A stretch of 64,000 nt of DNA, taken from positions 1 to 64,000 of the IMG/VR virus record IMGVR_UViG_3300046003_004989, one strand, 5' to 3'. Below, in pieces: positions 3,741 to 36,071 of the stretch. Under the pieces are notes generated by a model that was given only the letters and a program-made list of their open reading frames with translations, was not told where the DNA came from and made no database searches. This DNA is from a virus. Position numbers and translations under genes: made by a program. The first letter of the stretch is position 1. Each line of letters begins with the position of its first letter.

Positions 3741-4276
3741 TATAGAAGCTTATTACCGATTAGTGGATTTTGTCCTAGGTTAATGGTTCCGTCTTCCATT
3801 GTTGGTACCATTATCATAGCTTCAGATATGACACCCATGATCTTCGCAGGTTCTAGATTTGTTATATAAGGGAAGAACTTATGAAGTAACACTTCTAGAT
3901 CTTCTACTGATGAACCAATATTTGTCATAACTATTCTTTCTTCAGTTCCGAAATCAACAGTAAGTTTTAACATCTTATCGGACTTAGGCATACGCTCAAC
4001 TGAAGTGATTTTACCGTAACGGATTTCTAATTGCTTTTCAATCTCTAAAAATTGATTGAAATTTATCTTTACTTTCATATTTGATTTGATTGTTTCTTCT
4101 ATCGGATCGTTATCAATTGTCAATTCCGACATTCGCAAAACTTCAGTAACATCTTCGAATTTAACTTTAACTAATATGTCATGTGGCTCATTAGTGTGAG
4201 GATTGATAAAATCGTTATCTTTCCAAATTAATCTTCCTTTCTTGCCATTGACGATTACTCTGCTATCTATTTGCAT
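3740..4276 (-). CDS. tRNA-binding (EMAP/MetRS-C type) OB-fold protein
   Basis: The start is set at MQIDSRVIVNG, whose ATG overlaps the preceding gene's stop; the longer frame would run into that gene. The 178 residues comprise an N-terminal small beta region (1-60) and a C-terminal domain (about 80-178). That domain matches the tRNA_bind family (CsaA, MetRS C-terminus, Arc1p): QLEIRYGKITSVERMPKSDK, a conserved NLEPAKIMGVISEAM segment, and a hydrophobic end. Family members bind tRNA nonspecifically. Proximity to two tRNA-like genes suggests a role in tRNA handling, which is inference. Confidence 0.75.
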   Translation of the reverse strand: MQIDSRVIVNGKKGRLIWKDNDFINPHTNEPHDILVKVKFEDVTEVLRMSELTIDNDPIEETIKSNMKVKINFNQFLEIEKQLEIRYGKITSVERMPKSDKMLKLTVDFGTEERIVMTNIGSSVEDLEVLLHKFFPYITNLEPAKIMGVISEAMIMVPTMEDGTINLGQNPLIGNKLL

Positions 4277-4533: not shown

Positions 4534-4548
4534 AATTCGATATTTTTG

Positions 4549-4622
4549 TGGAAGTAACGGGACTCGAACCCGTGTTCTCGCAACTTCAGTCGCTTTATTC
4601 TATCCTATTAAACTATACTCCC
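4549..4622 (-). tRNA. tRNA-like gene, anticodon arm abnormal
   Basis: Read on the minus strand it has a 7-bp acceptor (GGGAGTA with TACTTCC), a D arm (GTTT...GAAT with GG in the loop), a 5-bp T arm with TTCGAGT loop, and discriminator A. CCA is not encoded in full. The anticodon arm does not fold normally. The best pairing is GCGAC with GTTGC around a four-base TGAA loop, whereas the register with T33 (CTGAAGT, anticodon GAA, Phe) leaves the stem unpaired. The amino acid is therefore not assigned. Confidence 0.7.
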
Positions 4623-4789
4623 ATTGTAGTTTTTGTAATGCCCCCAGAACTACTAACTGTGCTAACCTACGATTTAGAATGTAGTGTGCATATCATTAAT
4701 CATATCCGAAGATAAGAAACCTAAACGGTGTAGTTGGCCGACATTGCCTTCGATACGTACAAGTGCACTTGCAGAGGTCTTTCTGATAG
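4623..4789 (-). other. 167-nt spacer between the two tRNA genes
   Basis: No open frame and no complete cloverleaf. A segment near 4665-4690 can form a CTAC/GTAG stem around TTCTAAA, reminiscent of an anticodon arm, but the acceptor and T arms are missing. It may be a decayed tRNA or simple processing spacer. Confidence 0.3.
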
Positions 4790-4860
4790 TGGCCAATGAG
4801 GGAATCGAACCCTCATCCTCGGTTTTAGAGACCGGTGTTCTGCCGTTGAACTAATTAGCC
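4790..4860 (-). tRNA. tRNA with CTA anticodon (candidate amber suppressor)
   Basis: A complete 71-nt cloverleaf on the minus strand: acceptor GGCTAAT/ATTGGCC, D stem GTTC/GAAC, anticodon stem CCGGT/ACCGA (outermost pair C-A mismatched), loop CTCTAAA with T33 and A37, 4-nt variable loop, T stem GAGGG/CCCTC with TTCGATT, discriminator A. Positions 34-36 read CTA, complementary to UAG. CCA is not encoded. Amber stops are rare in this window (I found four: genes ending at 7851, 28446, 29042 and 43575), so readthrough of a few genes is conceivable. The charging amino acid cannot be told by eye. Confidence 0.85.
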
Positions 4861-20830: not shown

Positions 20831-21697
20831 TTATGCGTTTTCTTGTTCGAGGTTTTCGATGTTATTAACAACTTTTCCAGGAAGTAAATCCAAAATGAAT
20901 TTCTTGTCCTGAGAGAAGATTGGAGTTTCTACCGTTTCCCATTTAGTACGACGGATAGTTTGAGTCGGATCAATCACATGAGTTTTGTTATCATTAGCAA
21001 ATTTAAAGTCTTTTGCCAGATAAACATGTTCAACTTTTGTAATTACACCACCTCGTTTTTCTCGATAAGTGTAGTCATTCCAATTAATGCCTTTTTGAAA
21101 AATCATCTCTTGCATTTCATTAGTTTTCTTACCGTTTAGCTCTTTTGGAGAGTACATAGATTGTGCAACAGAAGAGATAGAGTTTCTAACTGCATCTTGC
21201 TGTCTCCAGATGAAGTAGTTAACAACCTCATCAATGAATGGAATCTGAAATACTCGAGCATCAAACATTGCTAGTTTGAAGTTTCGGATATCATCGTGAT
21301 CTAACATATCTTCGTAAATCCAATCGGCATGGGCTCGAGCTATTCGGAGTTGATTGAATTTTGCAGTTGCCATAGATGCAGCTACAGATGCCATTTTTTG
21401 AAGATTGTTATCGAACCAAGCATGAGTGCCTAGGTCGTCAAAGTCAGTAAGTACTAAAGAGATTTCATCGGATTGAACATATCCGAGTTTAGCACCTTGA
21501 ATGTTTTTGCAGAGGAAGGCAGTCGTTTCATTCATGTCTTCGATTAAACCTGCATCAAAAGGTCGTTTAAGTCCTTTCGTATAAGTGTGAAATGCTTTAC
21601 CATCAATACGGATGATAGTAAATGTTCTTCGAGGGAGCATAGTACGAGTTCTGTTTTCGTAGTAGTCCTTCATTCTGTCGCCTAATGTGTCGATCAT
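20831..21697 (-). CDS. Thg1-like tRNA-His guanylyltransferase (3'-5' polymerase)
   Basis: 288 residues with the Thg1 palm: IIRIDGKAFHTYTKG (metal Asp32) followed by RPFD and the second site GYVQSDEISLVLTDF (Asp77-Glu78). The C-terminal region has ARVFQIP...YFIWRQQDAVRNSI and a GINWNDY segment, typical of the family. Thg1-like enzymes add nucleotides to the 5' end of tRNA using 3'-5' chemistry and repair truncated 5' ends. A phage copy points to tRNA repair during infection. Confidence 0.93.
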   Translation of the reverse strand: MIDTLGDRMKDYYENRTRTMLPRRTFTIIRIDGKAFHTYTKGLKRPFDAGLIEDMNETTAFLCKNIQGAKLGYVQSDEISLVLTDFDDLGTHAWFDNNLQKMASVAASMATAKFNQLRIARAHADWIYEDMLDHDDIRNFKLAMFDARVFQIPFIDEVVNYFIWRQQDAVRNSISSVAQSMYSPKELNGKKTNEMQEMIFQKGINWNDYTYREKRGGVITKVEHVYLAKDFKFANDNKTHVIDPTQTIRRTKWETVETPIFSQDKKFILDLLPGKVVNNIENLEQENA

Positions 21698-25247: not shown

Positions 25248-26258
25248 TTATTTTAGTGCTACTAACCAAGTTAGTTTTGCTTTATAGTTATAAATTTTTA
25301 GACTCAAGTTTTGCATCCATTTAGAAAGACCTCTCCACTTATAAGCGAAATTCAATCTTCTAATCATTGCTTTATGCGATGTGGGTGTACATTTAAGTAA
25401 ACTAGGCATCCATTCAATATCATCTGATGCTACGATAGGAACCCCAGCAGTTACGAAATCTGCAGTTACAATATTGAAAGATTCAGAAAATGAAACCTGC
25501 ATACCAATGTCCATTTTAGATGCTGTATGTAAGAATTCTCTATGTTTCATCCAAGGATGTTCGATTAAATCATGTGGAGAATTATCGAATAGAGCTTTTA
25601 AATTCTTTAGAACATTATCACCTGATTGCTCTACTCTAGATGAATTGACGTGGAATCTTAGTCGTTTTCCTTTTCTTTCTGCAAATTCAATTGCTGCTAA
25701 AGCTTGCTGATAGTTATTTTTCATTGGACGGATTGCTCCAAAGCATCCAATATCAATTATAGTCTTTTTATGCTCATATACTGGTGAGTGGAATTTCTTA
25801 GCATGATATATATTTGGCAAAAATACAAATTTTCCTCTAGGAAAAGCCGCATGCAACTGTTCGGTTAGCTCTTTCGTATTAGGAGCAATTATAATGTTAG
25901 GATGTTTGATTGTAGTGTATTGTTGAATCCATCTTGTAGCAAGACCTTCATTAGCAAGAAATGGAGCTTTCGAGTGTATACGAATTATCCATTTTCTTTT
26001 TTTGTGACGGTCAATTTTAAGAAGTTCATCAAATTTAGCAGGTGGAACCCATAAAGCTTCGATGATAACTACATCGGGATTGAATTCAGTTACAACTCTG
26101 TCTATTGAATTAGAGTCGGGAATAGGGGTAAGAATTGCATCGAAACCTGAGTCTCGAAGGAAATTTGCAACAAATGAGGCCGAGTTGAATAGACCAGAAG
26201 TTATGCCGTAAGAGTCTTTAACTCGATCACAAGTAATGAATTGAATTCTTTGTGACAT
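25248..26258 (-). CDS. Glycosyltransferase (GT-B, GT4-like)
   Basis: 336 residues. The C-terminal half has the donor-domain features IDIGCFGAIRPMKNNYQQAL and then SFSESFNIVTADFVTAGVPIVASDD (the E.F.....EA...G.PvV-like element). N-terminal Rossmann-like region (VVIIEALWVPPAKF). Probably adds a sugar to a host or phage surface glycan or to modified DNA. The second domain end is slightly short. Confidence 0.8.
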   Translation of the reverse strand: MSQRIQFITCDRVKDSYGITSGLFNSASFVANFLRDSGFDAILTPIPDSNSIDRVVTEFNPDVVIIEALWVPPAKFDELLKIDRHKKRKWIIRIHSKAPFLANEGLATRWIQQYTTIKHPNIIIAPNTKELTEQLHAAFPRGKFVFLPNIYHAKKFHSPVYEHKKTIIDIGCFGAIRPMKNNYQQALAAIEFAERKGKRLRFHVNSSRVEQSGDNVLKNLKALFDNSPHDLIEHPWMKHREFLHTASKMDIGMQVSFSESFNIVTADFVTAGVPIVASDDIEWMPSLLKCTPTSHKAMIRRLNFAYKWRGLSKWMQNLSLKIYNYKAKLTWLVALK

Positions 26259-26416
26259 TGATGAGTTGGTTTTTTATATCTATCTATCATAACGGAAAAA
26301 ATGACCTCTATTGCATATTTTTCTCTAGTAGACAATCTAGTTAAAAACACACTAAAGTATCAAAAACGTAATATAGAGATTACAAATACATACAGTCAAG
26401 CATATCAAATGAAAAA
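26259..26416. other. Intergenic stretch, no convincing gene
   Basis: About 158 nt between the glycosyltransferase start and the Ro-like gene terminator. A plus-strand open frame (26301-26492) crosses the terminator and enters the neighbouring gene antisense. A GATA-type microrepeat precedes the glycosyltransferase start. A leader or promoter is expected here, but no consensus box is found. Confidence 0.5.
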
Positions 26417-26438
26417 AGAGGACCCTTTCGGATCCTCT
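26417..26438 (-). terminator. Intrinsic terminator after the Ro-like gene
   Basis: Nine-pair stem with one G-U (26417-26425 with 26430-26438), GAAA loop, followed by TTTTTT on the minus strand. Confidence 0.9.
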
Positions 26439-26460
26439 TGTGTTGAATGGCTGATAAAGA

Positions 26461-27897
26461 TTATTGAATTGCTTCGTATCTTTCAGTGTTAAGTGCTTTT
26501 AACATAATACTTACTGGATTCATTGAGTCACCAGAAAGTACTGCTTTCAAAATAGAAGGTGAGAATCCACTAATTAAAGCAGTATTTTCATCTTTAGATT
26601 GAACTGGGAAGTTGTTATGACGAGAACAAAGATTCCAGAAAACTACTTTTGGTAATTCATAACCTGATTCTTTGTACTTGTTTGCAATCATTTGGATTGC
26701 AGAAGATCTTCCATCGATAGCAGAGTTAAATTCCATATCTGACATAATCAAGATACAAGTTGGCATTTCGTTCGCTGGAACGTTATGTTTTGTTGCTTGA
26801 TCTAATACCATACGGAATGTAGCTTCAAGATCGGTTGACATACCCCAATCTGCTCTTTGCAATTGTTGGTAACGAGCTTTAAGGTCGCCTTTCAAATATT
26901 GCAATTGTGGACGAGATGAGAATGTTACGAATGCATCTTGGAAAGGACCTACATTTCTTTCAGAAATATAAAGACCTAATGAGATACAAACATCCATTGC
27001 AGTTGTCATTCCTGAAACAGCAGTGGACATTGATCCAGAGACATCACATACAGGAAGTACTCGTTCTTTCGAACCTTCCATGAAGTTAGGTAGAGATTTC
27101 CATTGTTCAGATGCCAAAGTTTGGTCACCTCTCTGAATAGTCTTTAAGATATCGTATGGGAATACGGCACCTGCATTTACCTTAGCTTCACCTTTCACTA
27201 AAGATGCTTTGTAAGTTTCGAAACCAGAAGGATCATTCTTAGCGAATGCTTTTGTATAACGAGACATTGCAACTGAAGGAACGTGTTGGTAGTTAATGTT
27301 AGCAAATTCCTTTGCACACATTTTTTGTTCAACTACTTGAGTTTGTTCAACCAACATTTTACGGAAGTCTTTTGGAGTCATTCTCATTGCTACTCTAACT
27401 TTGTTAGCAATAGCTTTTTTATCAGCACCAACTTTTCCACCAGTTCTTGGCATCCACTTAGCAAGTAAGCCATTACCTTCTTGAAGATTTTTCACAATCA
27501 TAGCGATTGCTGCATCTTCTACTGGAGTTCCGAATGTTACGAAAACGTCATCCCAACGACCATATTCGGCAATCAAGTGAATGTTATCAATAACTTCAGA
27601 TGGATAATTAGTTGAAGCATATTTCAACAATGTACGAAAAGCTTCTCTTTCACCGGCTCCACCTCTTACGTCTCTACCCCAGAACATCATCTTACGAGTA
27701 AGTAATGCATCTTCAGCATGAGCATGTTCGAATTTACCGATCAAGCGCTGTTTACCATCTTCTGTTTTCATTTGGTTACGAACTGCTCCCATAATGAAGA
27801 ACAAGTCTAGACAACCATTCAATGAAGAAGAGTTAGTCACCATTCCATTTTCGGTGTAAGTATCACCTGTACGCATTGCATCAATTAGCTTTGTCAT
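26461..27897 (-). CDS. Ro60-like protein: DUF2828-type helical domain plus vWA
   Basis: 478 residues. Helical N-terminal region with MFWGRDVRGGAGEREAFRTL (residues 71-90) and AEYGRWDDVFVTFGTP, the DUF2828 signature. C-terminal von Willebrand A domain with MIDAS motif DVSGS (285-289), Thr355 and Asp387 (IMSDME). This is the same arrangement as TROVE/Ro60: a helical repeat ring plus vWA. Ro proteins bind misfolded RNA and Y RNAs. The kinship of DUF2828 with TROVE is my inference. It is preceded by an array of structured repeats and followed by a strong terminator, so the two may form one transcription unit. Confidence 0.85.
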   Translation of the reverse strand: MTKLIDAMRTGDTYTENGMVTNSSSLNGCLDLFFIMGAVRNQMKTEDGKQRLIGKFEHAHAEDALLTRKMMFWGRDVRGGAGEREAFRTLLKYASTNYPSEVIDNIHLIAEYGRWDDVFVTFGTPVEDAAIAMIVKNLQEGNGLLAKWMPRTGGKVGADKKAIANKVRVAMRMTPKDFRKMLVEQTQVVEQKMCAKEFANINYQHVPSVAMSRYTKAFAKNDPSGFETYKASLVKGEAKVNAGAVFPYDILKTIQRGDQTLASEQWKSLPNFMEGSKERVLPVCDVSGSMSTAVSGMTTAMDVCISLGLYISERNVGPFQDAFVTFSSRPQLQYLKGDLKARYQQLQRADWGMSTDLEATFRMVLDQATKHNVPANEMPTCILIMSDMEFNSAIDGRSSAIQMIANKYKESGYELPKVVFWNLCSRHNNFPVQSKDENTALISGFSPSILKAVLSGDSMNPVSIMLKALNTERYEAIQ

Positions 27898-27928: not shown

Positions 27929-28378
27929 TTCAGAGTGTGCTTTGGTCAAAATTAAAAGGTTTGAGTTTGTAAAGTTGCTGTATACACTCTTTGTATTAAA
28001 AGTTCAGGTAGAGGTTTTGCTATTTCCAATAATTGCTTTTAGTAAGTTGCTGTATTCTACCTTTAATGTGTTAACAAATTTTCAGGGTGACTTTCTGTTT
28101 AATTCAAATTTGGCTGAGTTGTAGAGAAAAGTTGCTGTATGCACCCTTTAAATAAGTTTCAGATTGGCTATTTATATTTTTAGAAGACCTATAGAAACTT
28201 CCATCATGTTTTTTAATTGGTAATGAACCCAATCATCGTGTTTTAAATTGGTAATGAACCAACCGTCATTTGTTTTGAATGTGACGAAACCATTGTATTG
28301 CTTGTGAGAGCCCGAAGGTTTTTACAAGCGTTGCTTATCATAGTTTTTGTATGGTAAGTTTGCTGTACCCAATCTTTA
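27929..28378 (-). repeat. Array of four structured units with covarying closing stems
   Basis: Each unit has TTCAG plus a 6-7 nt arm, a spacer, then AGTTGCTGTA(T), the complementary arm and a T run (plus-strand view). The arms are: AGAGTGT 27932-27938 with ACACTCT 27984-27990; AGGTAGA 28006-28012 with TCTACCT 28056-28062; AGGGTG 28084-28089 with CACCCT 28142-28147; AGATTGG 28161-28167 with CCAATCT 28369-28375. TTCAG repeats at 74, 78 and 77 nt. Arm sequences change but stay complementary, indicating selected secondary structure. On the minus (likely RNA) strand each unit reads AAAG-arm-(A)TACAGCAACTT-spacer-arm-GAA. The array lies in the leader of the Ro-like gene. Confidence 0.85.
28168..28368 (-). 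pseudogene. Insert in unit 4 with a start-less open frame and 31-bp repeats
   Basis: The spacer of the fourth unit is about 200 nt, against 43-52 in the others. It holds a tandem 30-31 bp repeat around 28200-28290 (ATTGGTAATGAACC seen twice, a third copy degenerate). On the minus strand a frame of about 49 codons (GFVTFKTNDGWFITNLKHDD...) ends with TAA and has no start codon, preceded by an in-frame TAA. It may be a gene remnant or coincidence. Confidence 0.35.
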
Positions 28379-28445: not shown

Positions 28446-28844
28446 CTAAATAATAATTTTTTCTAAAAAAGTGTAAGTACCGTTATCATACTTGAATATG
28501 ATATAGTATTTAGACTTGTTCCAATTACCTGTTCTTATGCGGTAAAGGTCGTTTTGAACCGATGGTGCATTTGAACTGTAAATGTTATATGCTTTGACTT
28601 CAATGAAGTTTCCTTCTGAATCAATTAAATCGTGATAGATATCAGAAGATAATCTGAAGTCGTAGTTTTCTGTTAACCAAACTTCTAATGTCTTTCCTTG
28701 TCTAACTGCTGATTTGATAGCTTCTAACGTTCTACCTTTTCTTGCTCTATCAGATTCAAATAACCTCTTTGCTTCATGTTCTATTTCTCTTTCTAACAGA
28801 TCTACATTTTTAATGTCAGATGCTGTGAATTTAGCATTATTCAT
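28446..28844 (-). CDS. PD-(D/E)XK-like nuclease
   Basis: Start at MNNAKFTASDIKNVD, whose ATG overlaps the upstream TAA. Residues around 80-105 read SDIYHDLIDSEGNFIEVKAY, the D...ExK core of restriction-type nucleases, followed by a beta strand YYIIFKYDNGTYTFLE. 132 residues, one domain. Ends with TAG; readthrough by the CTA tRNA would add about 14 residues. Lies upstream of the hairpin array and Ro-like gene. Confidence 0.65.
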   Translation of the reverse strand: MNNAKFTASDIKNVDLLEREIEHEAKRLFESDRARKGRTLEAIKSAVRQGKTLEVWLTENYDFRLSSDIYHDLIDSEGNFIEVKAYNIYSSNAPSVQNDLYRIRTGNWNKSKYYIIFKYDNGTYTFLEKIII

Positions 28845-29082
28845 TAAGGAGTGATTGTAAGTATTGAATACGTTCACTCACTGCTGAATCAGCTGAAAAT
28901 CTTGATAGCTCTTTAATAGATAGCTCAATTGCTAATCTGCTATAAACTGCTTGTACTTCATCCATTGAGATAGATGTCTTCCAATCACATTCTTCACAAA
29001 TGTTATCTACCCATCTAGCGTAATTTTTCTGTATCTGTTTTCTAGGATTTGTTACTTCCAAATCTCTGTTGGTATCGCTCAT
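28837..29082 (-). CDS. Hypothetical protein (81 aa)
   Basis: A helical acidic small protein (NPRKQIQKNYARWVDNICEE). Overlaps both neighbours, so it is tightly coupled. Unknown. Confidence 0.65.
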   Translation of the reverse strand: MSDTNRDLEVTNPRKQIQKNYARWVDNICEECDWKTSISMDEVQAVYSRLAIELSIKELSRFSADSAVSERIQYLQSLLNE

Positions 29083-29476
29083 AATCGAATAAGGTTTGAC
29101 GGATTCTTTCTCTGCCTGCTGGATTCATAGAATGAACCAAACATTCAGGTAATTCGATAGACACATCAATACAAAACTGAACAAAGAATTTAGCTGAATC
29201 CAATCCAGTTTTTTCTTTGAATTCGATTGCTTTGTTATTGTAAGCATCTACCCCATGATACATAGCTGGATCGTAATGTTCGTCTGCTAAGTCATGGTCA
29301 AATGAAACCAATTCAGGAAATTCACCTTCTGCCCAACGACTAAGAATAGTAGAGACAAATTCGTCATGAGTTCTTGCAACAACCCATTCACGAGTTCCAT
29401 ATCTTGGATCGTGTAAGTATGTTAAGCACTCTCTCGGCTCTCTAATATCGTCTAAAAATAGACTGTAGGTTTTCAT
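29042..29476 (-). CDS. cREC-type receiver-domain protein (cyclic-phosphate processing)
   Basis: Start at MKTYSLFLDDIREPREC; upstream Met codons lie very close to a CATATAAC box. Receiver-like strand LFLDDIREP (residues 5-13), then WVVARTHDEFVS and PELVSFDHDLADE match the cREC_REC family named for cyclic-phosphate processing in RNA repair systems. 144 residues. Ends with TAG. Its neighbours are the nuclease, the hairpin array and the Ro-like protein, which supports an RNA-processing module. Confidence 0.75.
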   Translation of the reverse strand: MKTYSLFLDDIREPRECLTYLHDPRYGTREWVVARTHDEFVSTILSRWAEGEFPELVSFDHDLADEHYDPAMYHGVDAYNNKAIEFKEKTGLDSAKFFVQFCIDVSIELPECLVHSMNPAGRERIRQTLFDYERYQQRFGSNKS

Positions 29477-29502
29477 ATTCATGATGTGATTTTTCATTAT
29501 AA

Positions 29503-31967: not shown

Positions 31968-33152
31968 TTATGCAAATAAATTAGGGAAGTCTTCTTCAAC
32001 TTCGGTTGGTACTGGAACTTTGGAAGAAACGATGTAAATCTTGAATCTTTGTAGAATTGCATCGAATTTATCCTTGTGAATGAAATTCTTATCTGTAAAA
32101 TGTTTCCAGATGTTTTCGAATGTCATTATATCTGACGGTTGTACATTAGGACCGAATGCAATTTCAGTAACCGCTTCTGGTGTATTCGTAACAAACTTAT
32201 CTTGATCGTGTAGAAGTTTAGCTGTTTTAACTAGACCTTTTGCACCCATAAGAGTTTTTGTTACTTCGAAAATACCTTGACCTAAACGTATAACGAATTG
32301 TTTGTATTCTTGAGTCTCACCTTTATCTGTAAGTTTCGTTGCTTCTTTTTTGCATTCAGAAACAACTGACATGAGAAGTACATTTCTGTACATCCCTTTA
32401 TATTTTGATTCTGCTGCTCTAAAATCAGGTGAGTGATACATGAAAGTTGACCAATCTAGTGAAGATGTCATCATCAAATCAACTTGAGCAATTCCATTAG
32501 ATGCTTTACCTGCAATTGGAACGCCAATAGAAACTTGATTAAATCCAACTGATTTTACTACAGTTATGCCGTTCTTCTTCATTGTTGCTTCAACAAAATC
32601 AAGAACATCAGGGATAGAAATTGAATTTACTCCAGCAATACGATCCATTGAACAAGCAATATCCAAGTCACCTGAAAGCTGATCAGCTAGTTTTTTATTG
32701 AATGAACCGATCGGTTTTGCAGAATCTTTATCTAAACCGATAAGTGGAAGAATCTTCTTTACTACATAATCGAATGTACCTACAGCTTCTTCTTGTGTCA
32801 TAGGACGAGATTCAACTGCATTACCACCCTCATTAACAAATTCTACGGATTCTTCAACGAAATTCTCAACTCGTATAATTGATTTCGGATGATCTTTCAT
32901 TGCATCGTGGTCATGAGGAACTAGGAATTCTTCACCGTCTTTCTTTCTAACATTATTCCAAACTCTTTTCAGGATGAATCCTTTCTTAGTATTGCTAATT
33001 ACACGAGAAACTTCTCCTACATTTGGTCCATCGGCAATATAATCACCTGGAGCAACGTCATCCCAATTAACATTTTGAGTTTTGTATTTGTTACTTGTTC
33101 TGTTGAACTTGTTTTCTAGAACAGTATCAACGAATTGTTTGAATTTTAACAT
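31968..33152 (-). CDS. Capsid-targeted pol-beta-type nucleotidyltransferase
   Basis: 394 residues. Capsid-targeting-like start MLKFKQFVDTVLE, and a second signal-like stretch EESVEFVNEGG near residue 102-110. The core PIGSFNKKLADQLSGDLDIA gives Gly149-Ser150 and Asp162/Asp164, with Asp225 in IAQVDLMM as third metal ligand. This is the pol-beta superfamily pattern (CCA enzymes, poly(A) polymerases, Cas/defence NTases). Substrate unknown; co-packaging suggests action early in infection. Confidence 0.8.
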   Translation of the reverse strand: MLKFKQFVDTVLENKFNRTSNKYKTQNVNWDDVAPGDYIADGPNVGEVSRVISNTKKGFILKRVWNNVRKKDGEEFLVPHDHDAMKDHPKSIIRVENFVEESVEFVNEGGNAVESRPMTQEEAVGTFDYVVKKILPLIGLDKDSAKPIGSFNKKLADQLSGDLDIACSMDRIAGVNSISIPDVLDFVEATMKKNGITVVKSVGFNQVSIGVPIAGKASNGIAQVDLMMTSSLDWSTFMYHSPDFRAAESKYKGMYRNVLLMSVVSECKKEATKLTDKGETQEYKQFVIRLGQGIFEVTKTLMGAKGLVKTAKLLHDQDKFVTNTPEAVTEIAFGPNVQPSDIMTFENIWKHFTDKNFIHKDKFDAILQRFKIYIVSSKVPVPTEVEEDFPNLFA

Positions 33153-33769
33153 TATTTAATTTGGCTTATGTTAGTTACTTTTTTACCTTTTTTCTCTTCA
33201 TCATCAGCATCTGCAAAGAAAAGTAAACCTGCTTTAATTAATCTATTGTAGATTTCGTCTTTAACGATTCCAAAATCAATTGTGTCTGATGAATTTTCCC
33301 AAGTATCAGCAACGTATTCTGGATCGATCCAACCGTAACCTGATTTGATATTCTTAACCATGTCTGCAAAATCCATCTCAAATGCTTTTACTGCTCCTTC
33401 ATTCACAGACTCTTGAATATTCAACGGCTTCACTTTTGGATTTCTAGATCCTCTATAAACTGCGTTAAGCAATTTCTTATAGTCTTCAGGAGAATAGAAT
33501 TCTTCTTCCAATCCACAATAAACGAATTTAACATCCGAAGTGTTCATTGATTTTCCTGCATCTTTTCCGTGAGATATGAGGTTCGATGTTCTTTGTGTTA
33601 CAATTGCTGATCTTCCATCTTTCGTAAAGAAGATATCAATACCTTGACCTTCATATGCCTTAACAAAAGTTAAAGGTAAATCATGGTTCAGGTTATATGC
33701 AAGTTCTTCACCCCAAGTTATTCTTGCTTCATTGACAAAATCTTCGAAGCTTGGTATGTGTTTGTTCAT
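33152..33769 (-). CDS. Capsid-targeted hypothetical protein (205 aa)
   Basis: N-terminal signal MNKHIPSFEDFVNEA, with a second cleavage-like site NIQESVNEGAV near residue 116-126. Mature body alpha/beta with charged tail (DDEEKKGKKV). Its ATG overlaps the stop of the nucleotidyltransferase gene. Unknown function. Confidence 0.75.
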   Translation of the reverse strand: MNKHIPSFEDFVNEARITWGEELAYNLNHDLPLTFVKAYEGQGIDIFFTKDGRSAIVTQRTSNLISHGKDAGKSMNTSDVKFVYCGLEEEFYSPEDYKKLLNAVYRGSRNPKVKPLNIQESVNEGAVKAFEMDFADMVKNIKSGYGWIDPEYVADTWENSSDTIDFGIVKDEIYNRLIKAGLLFFADADDEEKKGKKVTNISQIK

Positions 33770-33771
33770 TT

Positions 33772-34446
33772 TTATGATTGTTTGTTTAGTATTTCGAATG
33801 TTCTAGGTTGCTCGTCTAAGTATGCTTTAGTATCAACCCAAACTTGTCCTAAATGCTTCTCGTTTTCCTTATCAGTGATATCATATATCGTTAGTAAGGT
33901 TGTGTTAACTGATTGACCTTCCTTACCTTGCATTTTAAGTTGATAATCATTCAACCAATATTGAGAATTATGAATTCTGTATGTAGGTCTGTCTGGTCTA
34001 TTACCATGAGGCTTAACTATGAAATATTGAAAGTGTGCGAACATTGTTCCACCTTCAAAATCCCAGATTCTTTCCATTGCTTCATCCGTTGTTGCAGATG
34101 TTCTAGGCATAAGCTTCTTAAACAGCTTAGGATCGATAGAATTCTTTTTGTCCAAGACTACAGGTTTGAAATTATTAAATGTAGTTTCATTTAGAACTGA
34201 TTCATTTAGAATTTCTTGAACTCTAGAAATTATCTCGTCTTTCATTCCTTTCTTTGTAGCTTGGAATAAAGCTGGACTATATTTCTTAATTGCTTTTTCT
34301 ATTTGTTCATCAGTGAATTTTCCGTCTTCATCAGCACTAGTATGATTTGGCATAGAATAAGCTAGATCTTTTGCAGCTTTTTCTATTCCAGGATGAGATA
34401 TTTTAGCCTCATTAACGAATGATTCGAATGTAGGTATATTTTTCAT
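33772..34446 (-). CDS. Capsid-targeted hypothetical protein (224 aa)
   Basis: Signal MKNIPTFESFVNEAKIS; an internal EILNESVLNETTF near residue 78-91 may be a second processing site. The rest is a globular domain with IWDFEGGTMFAHFQYFIVKP and a helical end. Unknown. Confidence 0.75.
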   Translation of the reverse strand: MKNIPTFESFVNEAKISHPGIEKAAKDLAYSMPNHTSADEDGKFTDEQIEKAIKKYSPALFQATKKGMKDEIISRVQEILNESVLNETTFNNFKPVVLDKKNSIDPKLFKKLMPRTSATTDEAMERIWDFEGGTMFAHFQYFIVKPHGNRPDRPTYRIHNSQYWLNDYQLKMQGKEGQSVNTTLLTIYDITDKENEKHLGQVWVDTKAYLDEQPRTFEILNKQS

Positions 34447-35252
34447 TATGATAGATTCTTTTTAAGTTCGTTATAGAATGGATGTACAGACTTAGGAGTC
34501 ATTTCGTCAAATGTTTTCTTATCATCTGCAAGGATTGCTTCACGTACTTTAGTACCTGAAGGACCTCCAGTTTGACGATCATCTACATTTTTTAGAATGA
34601 ATGGTTCAGATACAGGTACGTCCGATTTTTCAGAATTGATGTATTTAATTTGTGGTTCGTAAGCTTTCATACGATCAGAACCAGCACCCATTCCGATTGA
34701 TTCATATCCTTTTTCACGTAGGAATTTAACCATTTGTGGAATTACTGTCTTTCTATCGGATGGATATAAGAAGTAGTCTGCCATAAAGCTAAATTCTTTT
34801 GCAACTGCTTTACCAATCTTTTGAAGTAAAGCATCAGGAAAAGGAGACTTATCAGTTTTAGATAGGATTTGAAGTGGAATAACTTTCACACCGAATTGTT
34901 TTGAAGTTCTTTCTAGAGCTGCAATATGTCCGTTATGAAAAGGTTGGAAACGGCCAGGGAAGATACAAACTCTTTCACCGCTAGCAGCTTCAAACATAAA
35001 TAGACCTGCAGTTTCATTAATGGCACCTTTCTGAATAAACATATTCAAATTGATAGTCATTGTGCTACCACCTTTAATAGGTTTTACTGTAAGTATTGCA
35101 CCATTGTTTTTAACGACTTCGTATCTTGATCCTAGATAGAGGACGATTGAACCTACTTCGATAGCTTCAAATTCCTCGACACTCATCTTTTGACCATAAG
35201 CTTTCTTAAAGCCTTCATTAATAAATTGGTCGAATGCAGGTATGTTTTTCAT
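34446..35252 (-). CDS. Capsid-targeted HxGH nucleotidylyltransferase (NMNAT-like)
   Basis: 268 residues. Signal MKNIPAFDQFINEGF, a small barrel (30-80) and an internal GAINETAG. The catalytic domain has GRFQPFHNGH at 100-109 and SGTKVREAIL from 232, the two hallmark motifs of HxGH adenylyl/cytidylyltransferases such as NMN adenylyltransferase. GMGAGSDRMK lies between. Possible NAD synthesis or repair enzyme delivered with the DNA; exact substrate (NMN, pantetheine-P, glycerol-P) cannot be told by eye. Confidence 0.8.
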   Translation of the reverse strand: MKNIPAFDQFINEGFKKAYGQKMSVEEFEAIEVGSIVLYLGSRYEVVKNNGAILTVKPIKGGSTMTINLNMFIQKGAINETAGLFMFEAASGERVCIFPGRFQPFHNGHIAALERTSKQFGVKVIPLQILSKTDKSPFPDALLQKIGKAVAKEFSFMADYFLYPSDRKTVIPQMVKFLREKGYESIGMGAGSDRMKAYEPQIKYINSEKSDVPVSEPFILKNVDDRQTGGPSGTKVREAILADDKKTFDEMTPKSVHPFYNELKKNLS

Positions 35253-35268
35253 ATTACTTTTTATAAGA

Positions 35269-35301
35269 CAAATATAATCAATTTCTGCTTAACAGAAAAA
35301 C
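35269..35301 (-). promoter_or_regulatory. Internal Bacteroidota-type promoter
   Basis: TATATTTG at 35269-35276 and GTTTTTCTG at 35293-35301, 16 nt apart, with the inverted repeat TTTCTGTTAAGCAGAAA over the upstream part. Drives the HxGH enzyme and downstream packaged genes. Confidence 0.75.
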
Positions 35302-35323
35302 TTTTTGTCAATTATTTTTGATT

Positions 35324-35602
35324 TTATTTTACTTCTTCAGTTGAATCTTTGTCCCATTCACCCTTTTTAACAAATCCATGAACTGCAAAGTTAGCACGAG
35401 GTTCACCAGTAGTTTTCACCAATTTATCAATTGCCATATCTTCAGCTTTAGTGTTTTTAACACCTTTAATGTATCGAGCCTTGTATTGCTTTTTGGTTTT
35501 AAAATCTCCAAGAATAAATCCATCATAGAATTTAGTCATATCTCCTTCATTAATTATAGATTCATTAATGAAGTCTTCGAATGTTGGTATGTGTTTATTC
35601 AT
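35324..35602 (-). CDS. Capsid-targeted small protein (92 aa)
   Basis: Signal MNKHIPTFEDFINESIINEG; cleavage after INE would leave about 72 residues. Basic middle with RYIKGVKNTKAEDMAIDK. Possibly DNA-associated internal head protein, like the T4 IP proteins. Unknown. Confidence 0.75.
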   Translation of the reverse strand: MNKHIPTFEDFINESIINEGDMTKFYDGFILGDFKTKKQYKARYIKGVKNTKAEDMAIDKLVKTTGEPRANFAVHGFVKKGEWDKDSTEEVK

Positions 35603-35603
35603 T

Positions 35604-36071
35604 TTAGTATACTCTTTTTAGGTTTATTGATTTTTTATGACGATGTCCCATCATTTCATTTGCTGCAAATGATTCAAATCCAAGTTCTTTAATTGCATCA
35701 AGGATTCCATTTTCTCTTGTTATCCACTCTTCTAATGCATTGAACATATCTTCCAATTCAGCTTTTGATGTTTCTTTTGTAATTCCTCTCATAGGCAAGT
35801 GTTTATCACAAACACCTTTCCATTGTTGAACTAGGCTATCGAAGTATTGTTGATGATATAGTGTATAAGCTGCTTGGAATTCTGGATTCAAAACAATAGA
35901 AACTTTATCTTCTTTGGTTTTAGCTTTTGTAGCAGGGAATCTCTTTCCTACCTCATAGCTTTTACTAACCAACCATTTATGTATGTCGGCTGCTTTAATT
36001 TTTGGATCGTCTAATGTTTTGTATTGAACTGATTCATTTACAAAATCTTCAAATGTTGGTATATTTTTCAT
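35604..36071 (-). CDS. Capsid-targeted hypothetical protein (155 aa)
   Basis: Signal MKNIPTFEDFVNESVQYK. Helical body with a KGVCDKHLPMRG segment and a basic C-terminus (GHRHKKSINLKRVY). Unknown. Confidence 0.75.
   Translation of the reverse strand: MKNIPTFEDFVNESVQYKTLDDPKIKAADIHKWLVSKSYEVGKRFPATKAKTKEDKVSIVLNPEFQAAYTLYHQQYFDSLVQQWKGVCDKHLPMRGITKETSKAELEDMFNALEEWITRENGILDAIKELGFESFAANEMMGHRHKKSINLKRVY

Follow-up and report, generated by a model that had tools for sequence, protein, structure and literature searches.

Among the described systems closest to the one considered here, the Salmonella rsr-yrlBA-rtcBA operon is switched on by tRNA halves, and YrlA has been suggested as a possible competitive inhibitor of an anticodon nuclease (PMC7790460). 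In phages, putative Y RNAs of mycobacteriophages have been described by Chen et al. 2014, as cited in PMC12282133. The latter source reports, from RNA-seq of Listeria phage CKA15, three very highly transcribed noncoding regions no more than 2 kb upstream of a Ro-like gene, which its authors suggested may be Y RNAs. Here we analyze the first 64 kb (hereafter, the window) of the 144,480-bp virus record IMGVR_UViG_3300046003_004989 from IMG/VR, where four tandem units with complementary ends lie upstream of a gene for a Ro-like protein with DUF2828 and DUF7788 domains. Phage Ro-like genes and candidate Y RNAs being known already, the system is not new in kind. Judging from comparative sequence analysis, the units are very probably RNA partners of the Ro-like protein, and they share a signature that recurs beside DUF2828 genes in phages and bacteria of many phyla.

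The array is located between the DUF2828 gene and the next upstream gene (28446-28877, minus strand). Its four consecutive units lie on the minus strand, that is, in the sense of the gene, in the order D, C, B, A. Each is composed of a closing stem of 6-7 bp, a 3-nt linker, CAGCAA, a variable loop and the 3′ strand of the stem, immediately followed by G. The gene and the units are as follows:

26461..27897, minus strand: DUF2828/DUF7788 (vWA) protein of predicted Ro60 fold, 478 aa; Pfam DUF7788 6.6e-52, DUF2828 4.4e-33.
27931..27990, minus strand: unit A (proximal), AGAGUGU-AUA-CAGCAA ... ACACUCU-G; 43.4 bits with model R1 (unit in the training set).
28005..28062, minus strand: unit B, AGGUAGA-AUA-CAGCAA ... 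UCUACCU-G; found by the strict finder; 45.9 bits with model R1 (in the training set).
28083..28147, minus strand: unit C, AGGGUG(C)-AUA-CAGCAA ... (U)CACCCU-G, with one C.U mismatch; 37.7 bits with model R1 (in the training set).
28160..28375, minus strand: unit D (distal, 216 nt), AGAUUGG-GUA-CAGCAA ... CCAAUCU-G; found by the strict finder; fold z-score −2.98.

Units A, B and D conform strictly to the family definition (stem, 3-nt linker, CAGCAA, 3′ stem and UG on the gene strand beside DUF2828), and C does so with one mismatch. An earlier note on this DNA had described four units with four different complementary stems, all of which are indeed present in the gene sense, and a TTCAG spacing of 74-78 nt, which we measured as 74, 78 and 77 nt. 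The common flanks and size given there stand only in part: stems, spacing and most flanks are right, whereas unit D measures 216 nt instead of about 75 and has GTTTGCTGTA, not AGTTGCTGTA, as its inner flank. The common inner element is better given in the RNA sense, as an N3 linker plus CAGCAA. Positional orthologs of unit A, with changed stems, are found in relatives L008 (4911-4970) and L009 (4908-4969), and those of unit D in the same two relatives (4630-4819 and 4699-4825, respectively). Strict units, defined as a perfect 6-bp stem, 3 nt and C[A/T]GCAA followed by the second stem strand and TG, number three in the genome, all of them on the gene-sense strand within the array; none occurs outside it on either strand (144.0 of 144.5 kb scanned). 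The array region contains no plausible protein gene, the longest open reading frames being 60 aa on the other strand and 42 aa on the gene strand. The loop of unit D holds several internal hairpins. Taken singly, the units have unremarkable fold energies (z about −1, without significance in the short units; z = −3.0 for unit D), so that the evidence for structure is covariation, not thermodynamics.

For comparison we collected 56 viral relatives of the protein, 14 named phages and, from genome records of bacteria and archaea, 80 loci. In a swap test, each CAGCAA lying up to 2.5 kb from the gene, on its strand, was considered together with the hexamer preceding it by exactly 3 bases, and counted as positive if the reverse complement of this hexamer, followed by TG, was found within 330 nt; hexamers exchanged between sites served as a control. 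In the viral and phage set (48 DUF2828 loci), 68 of 156 CAGCAA sites were positive, compared with 1.5 expected, and 43 distinct hexamers took part. Linker lengths other than 3 gave 0-3 positives, and the other strand gave one. The bacterial set produced 94 positives among 205 sites (8.7 expected), with arrays of up to seven units. In a held-out test, sites were picked on the outer 4 bp and TG only, and the two inner pairs, unused in the choice, proved to be Watson-Crick in 175 (94%) and 163 (87%) of 187 sites. Among 42 aligned units, 99.3% of cells are paired and the covariation score is 1.005 (0.25 when shuffled, 0.11-0.18 when slid), although these figures carry a bias because the units were mostly preselected for pairing.

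A covariance model, the check proposed in the earlier note, was built from the 42 units. In 55 other DUF2828 loci it found 56 matches, every one on the gene strand; nine TROVE loci and the remainder of the window's genome gave none. In a control set of 196 Clostridia genomes, matches were present in four of the seven genomes having DUF2828 above the Pfam cut-off, each about 2 kb or less from the gene. Nine other genomes had single matches, isolated and weak, which were taken as background; no DUF2828, TROVE, RtcB or WYL relative was found near those in the six that were checked. Apart from these matches, units scattered without a Ro-like gene were not seen. Taken together, the swap, held-out, alignment and model tests indicate that the structure is under selection and belongs with the DUF2828 gene. 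The earlier note's reading of covariation as a sign of selected structure thus agrees with the swap, held-out and pair-count tests, and the structure is that of the gene-sense strand. Comparison reveals the same module in the units (a 7-bp helix, a 3-nt linker, CAGCAA on one strand and CUG on the other), which accompanies DUF2828 genes in phages and bacteria alike, with varying stem sequences, loops and positions. The signature was found in phages of Listeria, Enterococcus, Staphylococcus, Mycobacterium, Campylobacter, enterobacteria, Vibrio and others, as well as in bacterial chromosomes.

The protein itself matches phrog_850, annotated as 'RNA-binding protein' (4e-146), and relatives of its family occur in 682 phage records and in hundreds of bacterial contigs, for the most part annotated only as 'hypothetical' or 'RNA-binding'. 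The six best PDB matches of its AlphaFold model (22 sequences; pLDDT 88.3, pTM 0.87) are all Ro60 (E 3e-7 to 6e-6, TM up to 0.65/0.60, more than 500 columns), and the next ones are unrelated vWA domains with E ≥ 0.027. The MIDAS-type residues D285, S287, S289, T355 and D387 are invariant in 36 relatives. The TROVE domain (PF05731) has no match in the window's genome, and the family profile reaches TROVE/Ro60 chains only at E 0.03-0.6, over the vWA part. According to the structural model, the protein has a Ro60 fold (helical-repeat ring plus vWA/MIDAS) but is not a member of the TROVE sequence family. Its Ro-like nature, proposed in the earlier note, is supported by the predicted fold.

The loops of the units include tRNA-like elements, a point missing from the earlier note. 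In 109 perfect units with loops of up to 60 nt, too short for a tRNA (hereafter, short units), there are 26 hairpins with 7-base loops and five-pair stems (5.8 expected). The canonical anticodon-loop form CUNNNAA occurs 12 times, compared with 0.24 in dinucleotide shuffles and 0.4 in stretches drawn at random from the same loci, and its antisense form is absent from these 109 units. The implied anticodons are UUU (six loci), UUC, UAA, GAA, CCU, UCU and GUU. To these, longer units contribute GCU, UGU, CAU and CUU; one loop, CUGCCAC, carries a GCC anticodon. T-loops dominate the longer units (23 versus 0.2 expected, 170 units). In the window, one candidate of this kind was found:

27946..27964, minus strand: possible anticodon-stem-loop-like hairpin in unit A, UCAAA-C-CUUUUAA-U-UUUGA, with a tRNA-Lys UUU loop and a C.U closing mismatch.

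The ortholog of unit A in L008 carries the exact tRNA-Lys-type form, UCAAA-CUUUUAA-UUUGA. Taken alone, the hairpin of unit A is weak and is not the minimum-energy fold of the unit, but the family-wide excess is not weak.

Two further loci, L045 (4597-4711) and L047 (about 4020-4130), have, on the plus strand, tRNA-Asn-like genes upstream of DUF2828 with the module in the anticodon arm, where its order is circularly permuted (stem3′-CUGUUAA-stem5′-linker-CAGCAA). The idea, derived from these loci, that the tandem units represent permuted intron-exon or circular RNA was dropped because both connectivities are accounted for if a single helix is bound in the manner of Ro. In a Felix-O1-like phage, 2.9 kb without annotated genes downstream of DUF2828 (L067:5416-8313) contain four units interleaved with many unannotated tRNA-like genes.

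We compared the units with nine true TROVE-gene loci from phages, plasmids and one gammaproteobacterial genome. Only two of these loci have Rfam-detectable Y RNAs, namely, L164 with three YrlA matches (92, 66 and 49 bits) and the Rhizobium plasmid L171 with two (92 and 63 bits). One strand of their stems is a near-constant GRCGAAUGC (3 copies in L164, 5 in L171), and none of the 21 CAGCAA sites in the nine loci forms a unit. In the Rhizobium plasmid rsr locus, at least five tandem GRCGAAUGC copies are located between rsr and rtcB (L171:4646-5330), two of which Rfam reports as YrlA. The GRCGAAUGC strand is absent from the window units, which have no Rfam match (riboswitches included), and YrlA (RF02553) has no match in the window or elsewhere in its genome, in line with the earlier note, which had not recognized them as any known riboswitch or Y RNA. 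As in Y RNAs, the two ends of each unit pair with one another to form a closing stem, beside a Ro-like gene. Because TROVE loci lack the units and Y RNA loci have another signature, these observations suggest a Ro/Y-RNA-like system with an RNA signature of its own. On the sequence level, the closing module differs in kind, being a fixed sequence in YrlA and a free stem plus CAGCAA/CUG here.

It is possible, if doubtful, that the units are divergent canonical bacterial Y RNAs of the YrlA family which the standard model misses. The Ro60 fold of the protein is compatible with this, and so are units in two phages that enclose a permuted tRNA-like domain: two units of Enterococcus phage 113 match Rfam YrlA at 45.9 and 34.4 bits (threshold 69), and the loop of a Mycobacterium phage Faith1 unit consists of a T-arm, joined acceptor strands and a D-arm, corresponding to a circularly permuted tRNA. 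However, YrlA beside true rsr has the near-invariant GRCGAAUGC stem and no CAGCAA, Rfam gives no match to the window units, and the majority of units lack the length needed for a tRNA-like domain. Since YrlA-like bodies are present in some DUF2828 units, the YrlA/TROVE and CAGCAA/DUF2828 systems are likely sister forms of one idea.

Position bears on a different explanation, in which the units form a cis-acting leader: the protein would bind its own mRNA leader through a repeated module and regulate translation or mRNA stability. Units are directly upstream of the gene, on its strand, in the window and in most loci (175 of 205, median distance 204 nt), as this explanation would have it. Nevertheless, we consider it improbable. 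In nine relatives, units are present only downstream of the DUF2828 gene, and in KVP40 and Cronobacter phage S13 they are found among tRNA genes, at a distance of kilobases. Moreover, the number of units per locus varies from 1 to 7, and their loops are individually tailored to tRNA parts, which autoregulation would not need. The nine downstream-only loci argue for companion RNAs rather than a (purely) leader feature, contrary to the earlier proposal that the RNAs are made from the leader of the gene; the fixed 5′-leader position of a cis-regulatory element or riboswitch is not observed, nor is there an Rfam riboswitch.

Listeria phages provide hints of transcription. In P100, the first of three units is preceded, at a distance of 23 nt, by an 11/12 promoter with a 17-nt spacer, and these three units recur at 25288-25553 in CKA15, a P100-like phage. 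It is very unlikely that the units are DNA-level repeats (recombination cassettes or protein-binding inverted repeats) and not RNA: tandem arrays with variable inserts do resemble cassette arrays, but the orientation is strictly that of the gene (68 swap-test positives versus 1; 56 of 56 model matches), the module is asymmetric, and the tRNA-like loops and the promoter before the P100 units also disagree with such repeats. Strict orientation and the one-sided CAGCAA likewise led us to reject attC-type recombination sites, and a CRISPR array was rejected because the repeats are not identical and the stems covary. Least credible is a type III toxin-antitoxin-like array, because, although tandem RNA repeats immediately before a protein gene recall ToxI, the neighbor has a Ro60-type fold and is not a ToxN-kind endoribonuclease, and the stems all differ, whereas ToxI repeats are near-identical within one array.

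Among the 80 bacterial loci, the RNA ligase RtcB is found in the flanks of 30 and a WYL/WCX regulator in those of 33 (domains confirmed by Pfam), the common order being WYL, RtcB or array, DUF2828. Listeria phage P100 encodes RtcB and an RNA ligase downstream. Bacterial operons with RtcB and a WYL regulator favor a role in tRNA damage and repair.

Most likely, the units are RNA scaffolds or decoys of a Ro-like ribonucleoprotein (RNP) in tRNA repair or protection. We consider it probable that the four units of the window are RNA partners of the adjacent divergent Ro60-type ring and that both form a Ro/Y-RNA-like RNP; for the family as a whole, a tRNA-related function is somewhat favored. In the proposed mechanism, the module would be the putative binding handle of the protein and the variable loops its payloads, a significant share of which appear to imitate tRNA, either as anticodon stem-loops or as YrlA-like T-arm/D-arm domains. 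With such payloads the RNP would present tRNA-like surfaces, by which enzymes that act on tRNA (RNA ligase, nucleases, modification enzymes) could be tethered to the ring. Alternatively, these surfaces might occupy nucleases that cut tRNA anticodons, although we hold a decoy rather than a tether to be the less likely use. In the phage, the RNP would likely protect or repair tRNAs during infection.

Several observations weigh against this explanation. A tblastn search with the P100 and Erwinia ligases as queries detected no RtcB or Rnl-type ligase in the window's phage. DUF2828 loci of Acinetobacter ME3, Erwinia SNUABM_50, L016 and L033 have no recognizable unit. Anticodon-loop payloads are present in only about 11% of the short units, and in the window only in the imperfect form of unit A. 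Finally, the module and CAGCAA are absent from CKA15 26236-26727, the one region for which PMC12282133 gives coordinates; the match of units to transcripts is therefore suggestive only, and assignment of the top CKA15 transcript to a unit was rejected.

An extension of the same explanation, which we put forward only tentatively, is that the arrays are Ro-bound RNAs, each showing a different tRNA anticodon stem-loop (Lys, Phe, Glu, Leu, Arg, Asn and others), and thus swappable baits or docks for enzymes that cut, repair or modify anticodons. If so, the composition of an array would record the anticodon nucleases which the genome meets, and the phage RNAs would be an RNA-based counter to anticodon-nuclease defenses. 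More generally, the results point to a widespread, largely undescribed RNA-protein machine for tRNA damage or defense. They make it possible to search for the RNA partner of the DUF2828 protein family by a simple signature, separate two Ro lineages by RNA signature, one of them tied to RtcB operons in Clostridia, and make the function of bacterial Y RNAs testable. In the open literature we found no description of the RNA signature, its breadth, the split from TROVE, the WYL-RtcB operons or the anticodon-loop payloads; Chen 2014, Sim and Wolin 2018/2020, and Burroughs and Aravind 2016 lie outside this scope and may hold some of them, the comparison with these works being based on fetched sequences and on citations in open papers.

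Other features of the array's surroundings include the following:

26416..26439, minus strand: terminator-like hairpin and T run just downstream of the DUF2828 gene (consensus scan).
29042..29497, minus strand: cREC (cyclic-phosphate processing receiver domain) gene, upstream neighbor; Pfam PF20274 7e-16; may be linked to the RNP.

Among nine more neighbor proteins analyzed with Pfam, only a cytidylyltransferase-like domain and no RNA ligase was identified. The phage also has a gene for a Thg1-like protein (tRNA-His guanylyltransferase; 20831-21697, minus strand) and two tRNA genes (4548-4622 and 4789-4860, minus strand), one with anticodon CUA and the other with an anticodon that was not determined. 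The CUA tRNA, called tRNA-Pyl by ARAGORN, is a possible amber suppressor. At 31968-36071 (minus strand), several consecutive proteins, including a cytidylyltransferase-like one (34446-35252), start with a near-identical leader, M(K/N)(N/K)IP(T/A)F(E/D)(D/S/Q)F(V/I)NE, which gives the impression of a shared capsid-targeting tag attached to unrelated cargo. In relatives, two noncoding regions deserve mention. In L016, which has no recognizable units, a GC-richer, structured-looking noncoding stretch directly downstream of DUF2828 (L016:6390-6590) may be a replacement RNA. CKA15 (L078) 26236-26727, the most abundant phage transcript region in PMC12282133, looks like a different structured RNA.

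Among known systems, Rsr/YrlA (the Salmonella operon, PMC7790460; L164; L171) resembles the DUF2828 system in having a Ro60 fold, end-paired noncoding RNAs beside the gene, often several of them, a tRNA-like payload, and, at part of the DUF2828 loci, RtcB and a transcription regulator as neighbors. DUF2828-RtcB-WYL loci parallel the rsr-yrlBA-rtcBA operon (PMC7790460). The two differ in that the protein is of the TROVE family in one case and DUF2828/DUF7788 in the other, and that a fixed GRCGAAUGC contrasts with freely varying stems. Unlike in Rsr/YrlA, the DUF2828 units have invariant CAGCAA and CUG, many are only 50-60 nt long, single anticodon stem-loops are found among the payloads, and the regulator is WYL, not RtcR. 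The Rsr-Y RNA-PNPase complex of D. radiodurans (cited in PMC7790460 and PMC12282133) offers a precedent for a Y RNA as a tether between a Ro ring and an enzyme, with PNPase as the enzyme there and a hypothetical partner here. Finally, the putative Y RNAs of mycobacteriophages and the CKA15 transcripts are similar to the present case in that a Ro-like gene in a phage has noncoding RNA nearby. For CKA15, PMC12282133 gives no sequence signature, whereas the module described here unites many phages with bacterial chromosomes.
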